Source: Ulva prolifera (taxonomy: Eukaryota; Chlorophyta; Ulvophyceae; Ulvales; Ulvaceae). From it: a stretch of 64,000 nt of DNA. A model generated the notes under the pieces. It was not told the DNA's origin, searched no databases, and worked only from the letters and a program-made list of their open reading frames with translations. The DNA is taken from contig CM041196.1 of NCBI GenBank assembly GCA_023078555.1, positions 1,612,001 to 1,676,000 of the forward strand. Reading direction: 5' to 3'. Positions 38,175 through 64,000 of this stretch are shown here, in pieces (the stretch's first letter is position 1; each line of letters begins with the position of its first letter). Both the position numbers and the translations under genes were made by a program.

Positions 38175-41100
38175 ATGGACGCCGATCACGTAGATCCAGC
38201 ACCGGGAGCCAAACGAGTTAGGCGGACAAATGATGCTATAGATGCTGTCCTGTCTGAGAAGGGCATTTTCAGTGATCCTTGTGATGATGGCACTCAAAGG
38301 TACAGATGTGAGCACTGTCAGGCTACTTTCGGTCCAGACAGGAAGGCGTATGCGTCGTGGCATGATTGCCCTTCCCTGAAGCCTGTCCCACAGGACAATC
38401 AGGCCGATGGTGGCGGTGTTTTCGGCAGTGAATACATGGAATCTCCTTTGGAGTGGCCTGTACATGTGGATCGGGAGGCTGGGTGCCTGCCACTCCTCAT
38501 ACCAGAATGCACAGAAGACTGGGCCGCAACTCTGCAGCCCAGTACTCCCGAGTACTACACCACAAGCGAGGCCGACTTGATAGCGGCGGGAAGAGAAAGC
38601 GCTGTTGAAGCTGAGTACGAGGTGTGACAGCTGTTGCATGACCATGAGTGGAACGTATGCTTGCCCGTTAACGGTGGTATAGATGAATACGGCATCCTGC
38701 ATTTTGTATACGTATACGAATGCTATAGTACTGCAGGCACGTGTACAATAGCTATTAAAATTTCCACTATTGGACACGTGCCTGTTAATGCAGGAGCTGA
38801 TCGGTCATCACGACTGGAGAGCTAGGGGTGGCCTGGAGGGGCTGGATACAGACGACGAGGATGAGCCTGATCAGGAGGGAGCAGCGATTGGGGCTGCAGT
38901 GGATGCACCTCATGCTGCACTAGCTTGCGCCATCGCAGGCGGGCCTGTGCCTGGTCAAGAACTACATGAGGCAGCTGCCCAACAAGGCGTGTACGAACCA
39001 GTGCCGGTCAGTGTACACCTTGCTCCAAGCCAAAGGAGAGTGCAGCAACCGGCGCTGGAAGCCGAGCCAGGACGTCGTTTAAAGAAGGGTACAGGGGCCT
39101 GGCTGTGTGAGCACCGGGGTGACCCCATTGCCCCGGGGCATACTGTCACAGTCGTACAGGCCTGTTATTGGTTGGCATCGATGAAGAATGATCACAGGGT
39201 CACCGACACTGTGATCGACCAGTTCTGTGCAATGATGCACCACCTCATCTTGCCAGCGGACAACCTGTACCCTGCATCGTACCATATGGTCAAGGCTGTA
39301 TTGGATGTTGAATCCAGCAAGGCGTGTACTAGGCACATATGCGACAAGTGCTGGACCGTGTTCCCAGATATGCACTCTGCTCTTTACCCTGGAAATGCAG
39401 ATGCAGTGTGTGCAGCTGAAGGTTGTGGCAACCGCCGCTTCGATGTGTCCGACACTGGAGTGGTTTTGCCGAAGCGGAATATCTACTGTTTTGATGTGCG
39501 ATCAACCGTCCTGGACCTCTTGGATCCCATCCTGGAGGACCTTGACACCTATCGGGAACAGCGTGAACAGGCTTACAAAGACCCGGCATCTTATTTCAGG
39601 AGCCCCGCTGGTCAGTATGTCGACGCTGCTATTGGCCACAAATTGAGTGCTCCGTCGGAAGACGAAATTGTAATCCCTTTCACTATGGGTATGCTCCCTA
39701 TGGCGACGCCTGCGGGTGGAGACTAGCTATATACAGGCAGCTGCAGCACTATCCGATCAATGCTGCACATGCAGGGGGTGATGGCGTCCAGATCTACACC
39801 AACAAGGTGTACGGTACGCTGGCCTGTGGACTGAAGTTGACAGATGCACCAGAAGGGTTGCAAGCCAAGAATATCACATGGTCTCCTGTGAGCGTCGTGC
39901 AAGGCCCTACCGAGCCGGGGTCCTACCACGATGTCATGGGCCCTATCTTGGAGTTTTTTGAGAAGCATGACCCAGGTGTGACCTTAGCAATACTGCCATC
40001 CACACCACACCAAGTCCCTGCACAGCACCGGGGCCTCCGGACAGGATGGAACTCACGGCTGAGATCGCGACAGCTGCAGGCCGCCCAGGGTCCACTCCGC
40101 TCTGGGTTAATGTGGGTGGTCCAAGGCTGCTGAAGGTCTGGCCTGTATTGGTATCAGCAGAAGGAGACATCCCGTTCATGACGAAATTAACAGGAGGTTT
40201 ACATCATACGGCCGGAAATGCTTGCTTTGCGTGTGCATTTTCAGGGGCGCACAACCACGAAGCCAACACAGTCCGGTGTGTTCTTGTGGCCATGGCCATG
40301 CATGGCCATGCATCCAACAATTGCCAGTTAACTTCCCACATGTGCTGCTCCACGACGTGTATGTCTTGCCAAGTGCACCATCCAAACCGGAGTGCCTGCA
40401 TATGCAGGTGGATGGGGTTTGATGCAGATGTAACACAAAGAGTGCCGTGTTATGCCGCTGCTGGCAGCTGTGCAGCCTTCGCGGGCCAAACTATGCACCC
40501 TCTAGAGCAGATAGGTGTAGACCGCTCAGGGGAAAAACCCCGCATGCCACTTGGCTACCTACAGAAGGATGATGGGCGCTTCCTCGCCAGGACAGCCTTC
40601 ACAGATCCCATCGCTGTGGGATCAGATACGTGGCTGTCAGACAATGTGCTGAAGTACAGCGCTACCGAGATCCTCTTACGAGGCAAGAAGGCCAAACTCC
40701 TCCAGGACCAGGTGTTGCATCCAACACTCAAAGCAGTGGAGGATATGGACCAAAACCAGCGCACTGAATGGGTCAATCAGCAGCAGAAGGATCTGGGTGC
40801 TCGGGGAGAGCCCATGTTCCAGACGCTGTCGTACGTGAAGTGAGTCCCTCCATCTGATGTTCCTGTGTGCTGCCAACCGGAAGCAGGTTCCAGCAGCTGC
40901 GCTATCTCACTGACTGGATCCGGATGTGCTTGCAGCCCATGTCACTTCTTTCGGTACGGCATCGCACACCTCTTCTTGCTTGGCATCCTGAAGGACTTCT
41001 GGAGGATGTGGCTGGGGAAAGTGTCTGGAAAGGGGTGCGTCCTCCCTACCTACATCCGGACGCATCTCACCAAGAAAGGAGAAGACATTCTTACTACCGA

Positions 41101-42678
41101 GCTTTTCGGGAAGCCATACACTGATCTAATTCGGTGTGTGACCACCTTCGTGGCCGTGCTTGCATAAAAAATTGTGCCTGGTGGGATTAGCCCAACACAA
41201 CTAATGTGGCTGCCTCGTGTTGCAGGTACCGAGGCCTCTGGATGATGGAAGAGTGGCTTGCTTTCACCGAGACATTTTCTATGTTCCTACTGAACGATCT
41301 ACCATGGAAACGGGAGCACCTCCACCTGAAAAAGGTATTTGACGAGCAGTGGTCACTACTACGGTCATCTGTGCTTTACTTCATGAAGTGGCATGCTGGT
41401 CAACACACTGAAGAGCGCCTAGTACAGGCTCAAAAAGATCTTCTGGAATATGGGAGACTTGCTGAACAGGTGCTTGTCATCCTTGAACACACGTTAGGGA
41501 TGTTCAAATTCACACATACAAGTCATTGTGACCACGAATGTGCCATCATGCAGCTGGCATTACAAGTCTGCATATGCGTGCAGATTTTCGGTGGGAAGTA
41601 CATAACCACCTTCAAGCTGCACCTGGCTGCCATGCACTTGGCGGATCAGGTGAGGGCTTGCGGACCAGGATACACCTGGACCGAGTTCTGGGTGGAGCGC
41701 ATGGTCCAACTTGTGAAGAGGATGGTGAAGTACCGCAGCACCGCCTACCCCGAGTTGTTGTTTGTGCATGACTGGCTACTGACGCTGGCGTGCCGCCGGG
41801 TCAAGTTGTCCCCAGATGGTTGTCACTGTGTGTCCTTGTACGAGGCATTGCGGGCCGTAAAGAAGCGCCGCCTGCTATCTCGTGATGAACCCCTCCCGGG
41901 GCAGGCGTTGCTGCTAGGTGCACCAAAGAAGGCTGAAGACGCCGAAAAGGCGCAGGTGCTGCACATCCCTCCAATGAGTGCCACAGACGAAGACATTGTA
42001 CTGCAAGGTCTGCCACAACTTCTGTTCGAGGACACAACCCTCCTGGTAGACGGGTGGCCCGTGTTCAAAGACAATGCGGAGGACCAGCGGCCAGGGCTTA
42101 TTTTGCATGAACTTGGGCTTCAGGGTCCCCTTGGGGCCGGCAAGGAAGGGGTGAAGGTGGTGCTTCAAAAATTCACACGGGCAGACCTCACCACCGGGGA
42201 CACTGTGAGCAGTGTACAGTGCAACTCACAACGACGGAAGAACAATCAATGGTTCCTCATTCAGTATTCCGTGGAGCATGCAGATGGCCGCAAGGAGAGG
42301 AAGGTTTACGTGGGTCAATTTTTGTATTTTGTGCATGCTGCGTTTACATGCAACATGCTGCCCGAGGGAGCAACACGGGCGGGAAGTGATCGTCACCATC
42401 CATCTGATTTGAGGCTGGGGGTGGCCAATTTGTACAGTAGTGAGGACCAGCACGGTCCGGGGGTCAGGGCTGCAGACCCGGAAATAGGCAGACTGCATGA
42501 ATTTGTGAAAGTGGCCAGGTTGGACCCCTCCCGAGCCGGCAGCACGTTCGAGGGCGTGTTTGTGTTGGATTTGAGAACAATAGACTCACAGGTGGTCCCG
42601 ACCCGTGAGAGGGACGACACCCGGTATTTCTGTGTGTCTTCAAAATTGTCTGGTAGGTATGCCGGTGTAAAACGGTAG
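38175..42678 (+). CDS. CACTA/EnSpm Tnp2-type transposase, multi-exon
   Basis: Exon 1 (38175 to about 38623) carries a BED/C2H2-like finger (YRCEHCQATFGPDRKAYASW followed by H, D, C), with donor GAG|GTGTGA. Exon 2 (about 38794-39690) has the Tnp2 Cys module (HICDKC...CAAEGCGNRRF). Exon 3 (about 39777-39973) begins with the presumed first catalytic aspartate (GDGVQIYTNKVYGTL) and contains VVQGPTEPGSYHDV. The next exon has GGLHHTAGNACFACAFSGAH, the usual W/H...C..C block. About 40945-41133 contains GIAHLFLLGILKDFWRMWLG. The final exon (about 41226-42678) includes a DUF4218-like stretch (HLAAMHLADQVRACGPGYTW...ERMVQLVKRMVK). These are the successive landmarks of transposase_21 plus DUF4218. I see no obvious lesion; exon borders are by eye. 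It probably encodes the active cut-and-paste enzyme for this element. Confidence 0.75.
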
Positions 42679-52605: not shown

Positions 52606-53456
52606 TGTCAAGACGCGTGTTAGTCTCATCGAGTGTGCACAGGGGTTAATGCGCGTGCCTGAGCTGGTAAGCATGCTGACTGTGCATGACGACGTGGAGG
52701 GGAGCGTACCTTGCCAACGCGTAAAGTCGCGCGGCAGAAATGAAAGTAAGAATTGAACCGGTGACCTCTAGAGTACACACGACATGCTCTAACCACTAGG
52801 GCTCACCTGAAGCAACGAGTCCTTTGTTAGATGACTCCTCCCTTGATTATGTCATCTATATTCTTGGATCCCCAGATATGGATATCCCACAACACTTCCC
52901 CCCTTAACGAGGATCGAGCGTAGGGAGATCCAGATCTGATAACTGTGGGATATCTTCGATGCTCCTGATGGAATGTTGGAACCTTCTCTTCGCGTCCCGA
53001 GTCCACGGGGGCCCAACCCGCTATAACCGAACTCATATAATTGGGACTCCCTTAAGCTCGAGAGCTATGCTGACTGGGATGCGATCGCTCGGGAGGAGCT
53101 CACACAGCGGAAGGTGTAATGAAGATGGAAGCTGTAAGGCAGATTACGAAGTCTGCTCACCGATACCTGTCAAGACGCGTGTTAGTCTCATCGAGTGTGC
53201 ACAGGGGTTAATGCGCGTGCCTGAGCTGGTAAGCATGCTGACTGTGCATGACGACGTGGAGGGGAGCGTACCTTGCCAACGCGTAAAGTCGCGCGGCAGA
53301 AATGAAAGTAAGAATTGAACCGGTGACCTCTAGAGTACACACGACATGCTCTAACCACTAGGGCTCACCTGAAGCAACGAGTCCTTTGTTAGATGACTCC
53401 TCCCTTGATTATGTCATCTATATTCTTGGATCCCCAGATATGGATATCCCACAACA
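52606..53456 (-). mobile_element. TRIM element, copy A (289-bp LTRs, 273-bp interior)
   Basis: LTRs 52606-52894 and 53168-53456 are identical to each other by eye and flank a 273-bp interior with no ORF. On the minus strand the LTR runs TGTTGTGG...CTTGACA, with a polypurine tract AAGGGGGGAAG (rc of 52895-52905) before the 3' LTR and GGTATCG beside the 5' LTR. Each LTR carries a tRNA-like box A/box B pair (A-box region rc of about 52790-52810). The left flank is GATTG, whereas the right flank (TCCTA) is Gypsy sequence; the matching GATTG lies at 56090-56094, beyond the Gypsy LTR. Confidence 0.9.
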
Positions 53457-54552
53457 TCCTAGAGCCAACGGGCAAGTTGAGCGTTACAATCGCGTTGTAG
53501 AAGAAGCTGTTCGGCATTTCATCGGTCCTGCACATGATGATTGGGATGCATTCCTGCCACATATCGAGTTCAGTATGAATAGCTCCAAGTCGGCAGCCAC
53601 GGGCTGCACGCCGTTCTCTTTGAACCGTATCACTCCGCCGCTGTCTCCCACAGCCCTTGCGCTCAAATTGCCACAGCATCAGCAACCAGCTCCAGCTGTG
53701 ATGCACCGCATGTATTACTTCCTAGCAAAGCAAGCTCTGGTAGAGGCCAAGCAGTCAATGTGGTCGGATTTCAACAGGAAATCTGCTTGGCCAACCTTTT
53801 CTGTGGGTGATTTGGTCCTGCTATCTATACGTAAGGTTGCTCTGCATCATCCATCTCTCCGAAAGAAGTTTACTCCGCGTTGGTTGGGTCCCTGTAAAAT
53901 TCTGGAAGTAGTGGGCCGGGCCGCGGCCCGTATATCATTGCCGACCACGCTGCAGCGTCTAGGTCTACATGATGTCTTTCACTTCTCTGTGCTGAAACCT
54001 TACAATGAGTCCTTCGATGCTGCATGCGCCACCAGCCCTGAAGCTGCCAAGTCATCGGCCACTGTGGACACGACCACTTATGAAGTTGAATGTGTAGTCA
54101 ATTACATGCAGTCGCGGCATCGCGATGACGACATCTCCATCGCGTGCCCTCACTACCTGGTGCGCTGGGTTGGCTACGATGCATCTCATGACTCTTGGTT
54201 ACCAGTTGATGAGTTGTCCGGATGCCTGGAGAAAGTTGCCGATTATCTGTTCCACAATGCCTCCAGTACTCAGAGAGCGCACATGATTCATGAGTTTCCG
54301 CGTGAAGCGCGGCTACATCTGTCCCATATAGCAGCCAAGGCTGAATCCACCAGGCGTCCCGTCGCTGGGGGGAAGGTGCCCGCGGGTGGCAGCAACATCG
54401 ACGATCCCAAACGCAAACCGCGTAGACGTAGTTCTCGGTTGAGCGAATCCCATAAGGCAGCACTTTCCAGGGTCACCTACTGCAGTTATTGTGGTAGGAT
54501 GCGGACTGAGTCCGCAAAGCGCATGTGCGCTAATGCTGCCCCCCCGCTGTGA
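53457..54552 (+). pseudogene. Chromovirus (Ty3/gypsy) integrase C-terminal half with chromodomain
   Basis: Begins abruptly at the integrase motif ANGQVERYNRVVEEAVRHFI (the N-G-Q-x-E-R block with the catalytic Glu), so the upstream gag, protease, RT and most of the integrase are missing. It continues through CTPFSLNRITPPLSPTALAL, the GPY/F-type region (FTPRWLGPCKILEVVGRAAA), LHDVFHFSVLKPY, and a chromodomain at about residues 200-260 (YEVECVVNYMQ...YLVRWVGYDASHDSWLPVDE). The C-terminus is Arg/Lys-rich and ends with CSYCGRMRTESAKRMC. Codons before 53457 in the same open frame belong to the TRIM LTR and are not part of the gene. The 5' truncation matches an incomplete minus-strand cDNA. Confidence 0.9.
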
Positions 54553-63093: not shown

Positions 63094-63189
63094 CCATGTG
63101 TTGTGGGATATCCATATCTGGGGATCCAAGAATATAGATGACATAATCAAGGGAGGAGTCATCTAACAAAGGACTCGTTGCTTCAGGTG

Positions 63190-63243
63190 AGCCCCAGTGG
63201 TAGAGCATGTCGTGTGTACTCTAGAGGTCACCGGTTCAATTCT
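63190..63243 (+). promoter_or_regulatory. tRNA-like Pol III A and B boxes in the TRIM 5' LTR
   Basis: A-box-like AGCCCCAGTGG (63190-63200, running on into TAGAGCA) and B-box-like GGTTCAATTCT (63233-63243) are spaced as in a tRNA gene (32 bases between). The segment between, ending GAGGTCACC, resembles a tRNA anticodon-to-T-arm region. Arms do not pair well enough to call a functional tRNA. Confidence 0.6.
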
Positions 63244-63750
63244 TACTTTCATTTCTGCCGCGCGACTTTACGCGTTGGCAAGGTACGCTCCCCTCCACGT
63301 CGTCATGCACAGTCAGCATGCTTACCAGCTCAGGCACGCGCATTAACCCCTGTGCACACTCGATGAGACTAACACGCGTCTTGACAGGTATCGATGAGCA
63401 GACTTCGTAATCTGCCTTACAGCTTCCATCTTCATTACACCTTCCGCTGTGTGAGCTCCTCCCGAGCGATCGCATCCCAGTCAACATAGCTCTCGAGCTT
63501 AAGGGAGTCCCAGTTATATGAGTTCGGTTATAGCGGGTTGGGCCCCCGTGGACTCGGGACGCGAAGAGAAGGTTCCAACATTCCATCAGGAGCATCGAAG
63601 ATATCCCACAGTTATCAGATCTGGATCTCCCTACGCTCGATCCTCGGTAAGGGGGGAAGTGTTGTGGGATATCCATATCTGGGGATCCAAGAATATAGAT
63701 GACATAATCAAGGGAGGAGTCATCTAACAAAGGACTCGTTGCTTCAGGTG

Positions 63751-63804
63751 AGCCCCAGTGGTAGAGCATGTCGTGTGTACTCTAGAGGTCACCGGTTCAA
63801 TTCT
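63751..63804 (+). promoter_or_regulatory. tRNA-like Pol III A and B boxes in the TRIM 3' LTR
   Basis: An identical copy of the box pair, A at 63751-63761 and B at 63794-63804. Confidence 0.6.
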
Positions 63805-64000
63805 TACTTTCATTTCTGCCGCGCGACTTTACGCGTTGGCAAGGTACGCTCCCCTCCACGTCGTCATGCACAGTCAGCATGCTTACCAGCTCAGGCACGC
63901 GCATTAACCCCTGTGCACACTCGATGAGACTAACACGCGTCTTGACACCATGCCTGGATCATGTTGCTTTGAAACTTATGATTACAACCCATCGTGATAT

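Follow-up and report, generated by a model that had tools for sequence, protein, structure and literature searches.

A recently active TRIM family of Ulva prolifera with a tRNA-Thr-derived segment, and plausibly a Pol III promoter, in its LTRs

Towards the right-hand end of the 64,000-nt stretch of Ulva prolifera DNA analysed here (the window), a complete LTR-internal domain-LTR element of 849 bp is found at 63099-63947 (288+273+288 bp), and a second copy of it, hereafter copy A, lies on the minus strand of the same stretch. The features on which the following discussion is based are, in window positions:

63094-63098, no strand: left target-site duplication (TSD), CCATG
63099-63386, plus strand: 5' LTR, 288 bp, TG...CA, identical to the 3' LTR
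63133-63136, plus strand: TATA, found nowhere else in the 5' LTR, some 50 nt upstream from the first tRNA position
63184-63241, plus strand: tRNA-Thr(TGT)-derived segment of the 5' LTR, ending in the T-loop
63190-63200, plus strand: A-box-like motif of the 5' LTR, AGCCCCAGTGG
63233-63243, plus strand: B-box-like motif of the 5' LTR, GGTTCAATTCT
63387-63401, plus strand: primer-binding site (PBS), GGTATCGATGAGCAG, adjoining the first LTR
63387-63659, plus strand: internal domain, 273 bp, without coding content
63651-63659, plus strand: polypurine tract (PPT), GGGGGGAAG, adjoining the second LTR and the same in 28/28 copies
63660-63947, plus strand: 3' LTR, 288 bp
63745-63802, plus strand: counterpart of this tRNA-Thr(TGT)-derived segment, within the 3' LTR
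63751-63761, plus strand: A-box-like motif of the 3' LTR, AGCCCCAGTGG, thus present in both LTRs
63794-63804, plus strand: B-box-like motif of the 3' LTR, GGTTCAATTCT, likewise present in both
63948-63952, no strand: right TSD, CCATG
52606-53456, minus strand: copy A of the same TRIM, 851 bp, with identical LTRs and no matching TSD

A first-pass annotation of this DNA had described an 849-bp LTR element with a PBS, a PPT and the TSD CCATG, and this description is borne out, the LTRs being identical and CCATG flanking them on both sides. Its statement that the element has no ORF is right as regards coding, since only short frames exist, the longest of which (177 aa, 63236-63769) is antisense. 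The identification as a TRIM was also right: there are two LTRs within a total length below approximately 1 kb, there is no coding-like ORF on the sense strand, a PBS and a PPT occupy the ends of the internal domain, and the TSD has a fixed size of 5 bp. The antisense frame extends over the internal domain and some way into each LTR, and nothing marks it as a gene. Near the end of the internal domain, LTR bases 4-14 (63663-63673) recur in reverse complement as GATATCCCACA (63600-63610); a hairpin that this 11-nt inverted repeat might form around the PPT was rejected, its stability not being above that of shuffled sequences. Copy A, which is flanked by TAGGA and CAATC, may owe its combination of identical LTRs and missing TSD to recombination or to insertion beside a rearrangement. 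It overlaps the start of a Ty3/gypsy-like frame (53386-54552) with a Tf2-type SH3 domain and a chromodomain. Elsewhere in the window (38770-42678) there are frames with a weak match to DUF4218 (41206-42678, E 0.0007, below the curated cut-off), a domain found in some DNA transposons.

The two copies of the window belong to a family that is dispersed over the genome (88,887,114 bases searched, in 44 contigs). A search with the whole element gave at least 41 matches, and 181 places (92+89) match the opening 23 bases of the LTR with 3 mismatches or fewer, which marks them as LTR starts, the reversed control giving 0. Among the rows fetched, 28 contain the whole internal domain between LTR pieces, and in 24 of these both LTRs are complete. 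Perfect 5-bp TSDs flank 18 of the 24, and two more, which overlap, are supplied by L009, a tandem of the form LTR-int-LTR-int-LTR that, taken as one unit, has CAGGG at both sides. The remaining four rows without a perfect TSD are L012, L025, L026 and copy A, and in L025 and L026 4/5 TSD bases are alike. Solo LTRs behave similarly, with perfect 5-bp TSDs in 46 of the 52 complete ones. Furthermore, no difference separates the two LTRs in 13 of the 20 rows whose LTRs are of equal length, and an 849-bp copy identical to that of the window is present elsewhere on the same contig with a different TSD, CTGCG. Because of these perfect TSDs, undiverged LTR pairs and the identical copy elsewhere, the TRIM family has been active recently by LTR-type integration.

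Some copies have themselves received insertions. Two (G000:C4:1071161-1082042 and C7:4929914-4940430) are split by inserts of approximately 10 kb, and at both splits the TRIM query overlaps by 5 bases, which is what the nesting of elements that make 5-bp TSDs should produce. An internal domain without LTRs (L146) was considered as a possible LTR swap, an idea that was rejected, the locus being an old nested TRIM copy whose internal domain and 3' LTR are kept apart by a 1.27-kb repeat flanked by GGGGAAG at either end; a search over 4.9 kb did not reveal the 5' LTR. The repeat (L159:3352-4618) has at least 48 genome matches, and a GAGGGAGGTA-like inverted sequence near its ends suggests that it may be a DNA transposon.

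As the element has no coding content, which machinery would move it? A candidate comes from the PBS, which after the first LTR reads GGTATCGGTGAGCAG in 20/28 copies and GGTATCGATGAGCAG in the other 8/28, that of the window included. The 15 nt of GGTATCGGTGAGCAG recur at 4 other places in the genome, 3 of them exact, with sequences that diverge after the site. Since a 15-base match by chance is not rare in a genome of this size, it is the setting that decides. At one of these places (L160), the GGTATCGGTGAGCAG site lies two nt after the CA end of a 178-bp LTR, reading CTGGTATCGGTGAGCAG; when this stretch was used as query, its positions 21-198 proved to be the 178-bp LTR, and at loci on C8 and C5 a second LTR follows 6.5 kb downstream on the same strand. 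By subtraction, both elements (C8:451393-458114 and C5:6994688-7001409) are 6,722 bp long. In the C8 element, a 1.8-kb piece forms one uninterrupted frame of 599 aa that encodes, in the order of Ty3/gypsy elements, RVT_1, RNase H and Integrase_H2C2. The TRIM PBS is accordingly taken to be genuine, because its 15 nt are held in common, at an LTR end, with a 6.7-kb Ty3/gypsy element. It is plausible that this Ty3/gypsy element, as the bearer of the same PBS, is the helper of the TRIM. The end of its 178-bp LTR (L160) gave no significant match to the TRIM LTR (best E 0.31).

The primer itself is a different matter. Against 56 host tRNA genes the PBS had no good match (best 11/18), the expected 3' end of the primer tRNA (CTGCTCACCGATA before CCA) gave no exact match in a genome search, and the base before GG in the TRIM PBS is A, unlike the T of the standard TGG. 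Complementarity of the PBS to a host tRNA and self-priming by the LTR were both set aside, neither giving a convincing match. The first ORF of the Ty3/gypsy element (L160:248-748, 167 aa) has no Pfam match and a single relative, 99% alike, in the protein collection; AAGGTAAGT, which resembles a splice donor, extends over its stop and the bases after it.

The A- and B-box-like motifs that the first-pass annotation had noticed at tRNA spacing are indeed present in each LTR, 32 nt apart, compared with 31 nt between the boxes of the host tRNA-Thr(tgt) as counted by hand. That they are of tRNA type also stands, given the local alignment of the LTR with host tRNAs, in which the best match is tRNA-Thr(TGT), on the sense strand and over approximately 46-60 nt. 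In the window copy the alignment covers 46 nt (63195-63240), from the D-arm to the T-loop, and in copies L004 and L026 it reaches upstream to tRNA position 2. The best local score, obtained against 56 host tRNA genes (48 distinct sequences), is 38, which was reached by 0/4000 dinucleotide shuffles (maximum 37), for a Gumbel p of approximately 4e-5; 430 tiles of the window reached at most 32, with a tRNA set short of 5 entries. The same tRNA is the top match in 11 of the 12 LTR copies shown (chosen from 124 so as to include old ones), the exception being L159. These results bear directly on the possibility that an ordinary TRIM has come to resemble the A and B boxes by accident. No tRNA is called in the element by either ARAGORN or Rfam (the latter even at E 10), as such an accident would have it; against this, the alignment beats 4000/4000 shuffles and all 430 window tiles, and it does so on the sense strand, over approximately 46-60 nt and with the same best tRNA in 11/12 copies. 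Chance is therefore regarded as the least probable of the explanations considered, and hardly worth entertaining, and the A/B-box segment of the LTR is, on the strength of its alignment, judged to be real tRNA homology.

The homology is that of a worn piece, which has no tRNA-like fold. Its A box is imperfect, with an extra C relative to the usual tRNA motif and a G in place of the T8 of most tRNAs. The A region of copy A reads CCCTAGTGGTTAGAGCA, exactly as the first-pass annotation said. Several older copies of the family have ACTCATGAGGTC at the place of the ACTCTAGAGGTC of most young ones, and by eye this ACTCATGAGGTC is closer to the tRNA.

The segment is linked with the LTR. The genome has 75 sites of AGTGGTTAGAGCAT (46+29), compared with 1 for the reversed string, and 161 sites of GAGGTCACCGGTTCAATTC when 2 mismatches are allowed (82+79), compared with 23; a pattern running from A to B was found at 53 sites, compared with 0 for the reversed pattern. 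When extra A or B sites outside the whole-element matches were fetched, 60/60 fell in copies of the LTR, some of them partial and with identities down to 77%. A further A-B site (L158:663-817) belongs to an old relative of the LTR that is approximately 83% alike over the first 146 bases; this locus was chosen by its A and B boxes, its B box reads GGTTCAAATC, and the match ends just past it.

This distribution matters for the idea that a free SINE family headed by tRNA-Thr exists and that the LTR carries a copy of it. An origin from a tRNA-headed SINE has been proposed for Helenus, the published TRIMs with tRNA-derived LTR sequence, in general terms (Kojima 2024, PMC10886601), and the first-pass annotation had likewise offered the capture of a tRNA-derived SINE, which may still be how the piece entered, although no such SINE was found. 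A SINE would be expected to show a free tRNA head and a LINE-like tail, with no LTRs, and the 60/60 extra A/B sites are in LTRs, as is L158. The tRNA-Thr gene, used as a genome query, returned 3 places only, all tRNA genes, in a search of limited sensitivity that also missed the LTR. Since all fetched sites are LTRs or tRNA genes, no free SINE is seen within the limits of these searches, and its existence is considered very improbable.

What, then, is the segment for? It is plausible that the A and B boxes of the LTR act as a Pol III promoter. The competing explanation has Pol II transcribing the TRIM, with the TATA at 63133 as its promoter, and regards the tRNA-Thr sequence as an inert fossil, left in the LTR by an insertion long ago. 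Conservation of the boxes was followed in rows not chosen by box (64 LTR rows for the motif counts) and in solo LTRs chosen by one of the two boxes, with changes counted per cell relative to the window copy and CpG sites left out. The B motif is kept in 62/64 LTR rows, the A motif in 59/64 and both in 56/64. For 60 near-complete LTRs picked without regard to the boxes, the changed cells number 1/540 in the B box, 23/840 in the A core and 126/12240 in the rest; near-invariance among the young copies is confined to the B box. Such near-invariance speaks against a mere fossil, as does the occurrence of A and B at tRNA spacing in the 53 sites mentioned above. Decaying solo LTRs give a different picture, in which the boxes have no protection: the B box was changed in 22/261 cells, compared with 285/5916 for the rest and hence more often, in 29 solo LTRs chosen by their A string, and the A core in 9/308, compared with 137/4488 for the rest, in 22 solo LTRs chosen by their B string. 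This lack of extra protection can be read in favour of the fossil; drift of the boxes is, however, expected in dead solo copies, and these counts therefore neither support nor refute a function. The conservation of the boxes in the family, on which the first-pass annotation had made its proposal depend, thus holds for young copies and fails in decaying solo LTRs, and selection on the boxes is not demonstrable from the copies of this genome.

The surroundings of the boxes can also be read in two ways. TATA is found within 60 nt upstream in 23/30 host tRNA genes, compared with 0-6/30 in ten windows further up, and the TATA of the LTR, at a distance matching that of the host Pol III genes, fits a Pol III promoter and could equally serve Pol II; a single TATA approximately 50 nt upstream of the tRNA piece is also what the fossil explanation would have. 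Downstream, TTTT follows within 60 nt in 29/30 host tRNA genes. The first-pass annotation had observed that sense TTTT is missing from both copies of the window, which is correct (and extends to 27/28 family rows), and had derived from it a possible Pol III read-through, as evidence for which the absence is not significant and was discarded: AAAA is likewise absent from the element and 52/303 nearby 849-bp windows are also without TTTT, so that its absence is not remarkable. With host tRNA genes having TTTT and the element having none, the end of a Pol III transcript of it would be undefined. Such a transcript, if it read through, would stop at whichever T4 comes first in the flank; one was seen in 10/24 rows, at distances of 50 to 1277 nt from the 3' LTR, in a scan that covered just 200 nt of flank for most rows. 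The lack of a T4 terminator and of a tRNA fold favours Pol II and a fossil. Against them, AATAAA, ATTAAA and TGTAA are all absent from the 849 bp of the TRIM, and published TRIMs bearing tRNA sequences conserve their boxes across families, by the account of Kojima 2024 (PMC10886601). Taking both sides into account, Pol II transcription past a fossil tRNA piece is deemed unlikely, if well short of negligible.

The interpretation regarded as probable, with some reserve, is that of a TRIM family of the Helenus kind, with a tRNA-Thr-derived Pol III promoter in the LTR and a Ty3/gypsy helper. The LTR carries a worn part of a tRNA-Thr(UGU) gene, which begins close to the 5' end of the gene, stops in the T-loop and keeps the type-2 internal promoter. 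TFIIIC and TFIIIB would bind the A and B boxes, aided by the upstream TATA as in host tRNA genes, and Pol III would start in the 5' LTR, slightly upstream of the A box, and, without a T4, read across the internal domain as far as the 3' LTR or the flank. With such a start and such a read-through, the RNA would have the same sequence in both of its LTR parts. Copying of the TRIM RNA, and insertion with 5-bp duplications, would then fall to the enzymes of the Ty3/gypsy element with the same PBS, its reverse transcriptase and integrase.

The family adds a young, apparently recently active member to the few TRIMs with small-RNA promoters. Some of its copies are identical although they sit at separate sites, its source tRNA can be recognised, and there is a candidate helper whose pol frame is open, all of which makes the proposed reading of such LTRs by Pol III directly testable.

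How does this family compare with known systems? Cassandra, the plant TRIM to which the first-pass annotation aptly likened the element, also has the promoter of a small-RNA gene inside its LTR, which there consists of 5S rRNA sequence together with a terminator (as described in PMC10886601), whereas here it is a tRNA-Thr piece without T4; no 5S rRNA is matched by Rfam in the LTR at E up to 10. Ajax, a nemertean TRIM, resembles the family in having only the promoter part of a small-RNA gene and 5-bp TSDs, and differs in the 5S rRNA origin of that part (again according to PMC10886601). With tRNA-derived SINEs (SINE2) the family has in common a degenerate tRNA head that has A and B boxes and no tRNA fold; the TRIM has LTRs, a PBS, a PPT and 5-bp TSDs and therefore, unlike SINE2, moves by LTR-type integration.

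The closest likeness is to Helenus, the name under which Kojima 2024 (PMC10886601) describes TRIMs of fungi, animals and Selaginella whose LTRs contain tRNA-derived sequence, and which is there joined by the proposed name TRIMp3 for TRIMs with Pol III promoters; on this subject, a search of later literature for either name found only that paper. A tRNA-type promoter in a TRIM LTR, which the first-pass annotation had held to be non-standard, had thus already been described, and the Ulva family, albeit new and very young, is of a known kind. As characterised in that account, Helenus families have boxes A and B that are conserved across families, an intact tRNA is rare among them, tRNA-Thr is a recurrent type, and solo LTRs and tandem arrays occur; Pol III transcription is there presented as unproven. 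The element fits this structural definition: each LTR has a tRNA-derived A/B-box segment, of the tRNA-Thr(TGT) type and not an intact tRNA gene, and there are a PBS, a PPT, solo LTRs and tandem copies. As for the motifs given for the Helenus boxes, GGTTC and TGG are present and TRGCY reads GAGCC, which agrees at 4/5 positions. The 5-bp TSDs are those of the fungal and plant families, animal ones having 4-bp TSDs (PMC10886601). Helenus helpers, stated to be Copia in fungi and Gypsy in animals, have the PBS or internal sequence in common with their TRIMs rather than the LTR (PMC10886601), and the candidate helper here also has the same PBS and a different LTR. The difference lies in the combination, a Ty3/gypsy PBS with 5-bp TSDs, compared with the published Copia/5-bp (fungi) and Gypsy/4-bp (animals). 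It is conceivable, on balance a little doubtful, that a Pol III-driven TRIM arose here independently, when the host's own tRNA-Thr gene was captured, in a lineage outside fungi, animals and Selaginella, with a Ty3/gypsy helper and 5-bp duplications; if so, the family would represent a pairing of helper and TSD unreported for the groups that Kojima 2024 (PMC10886601) describes.
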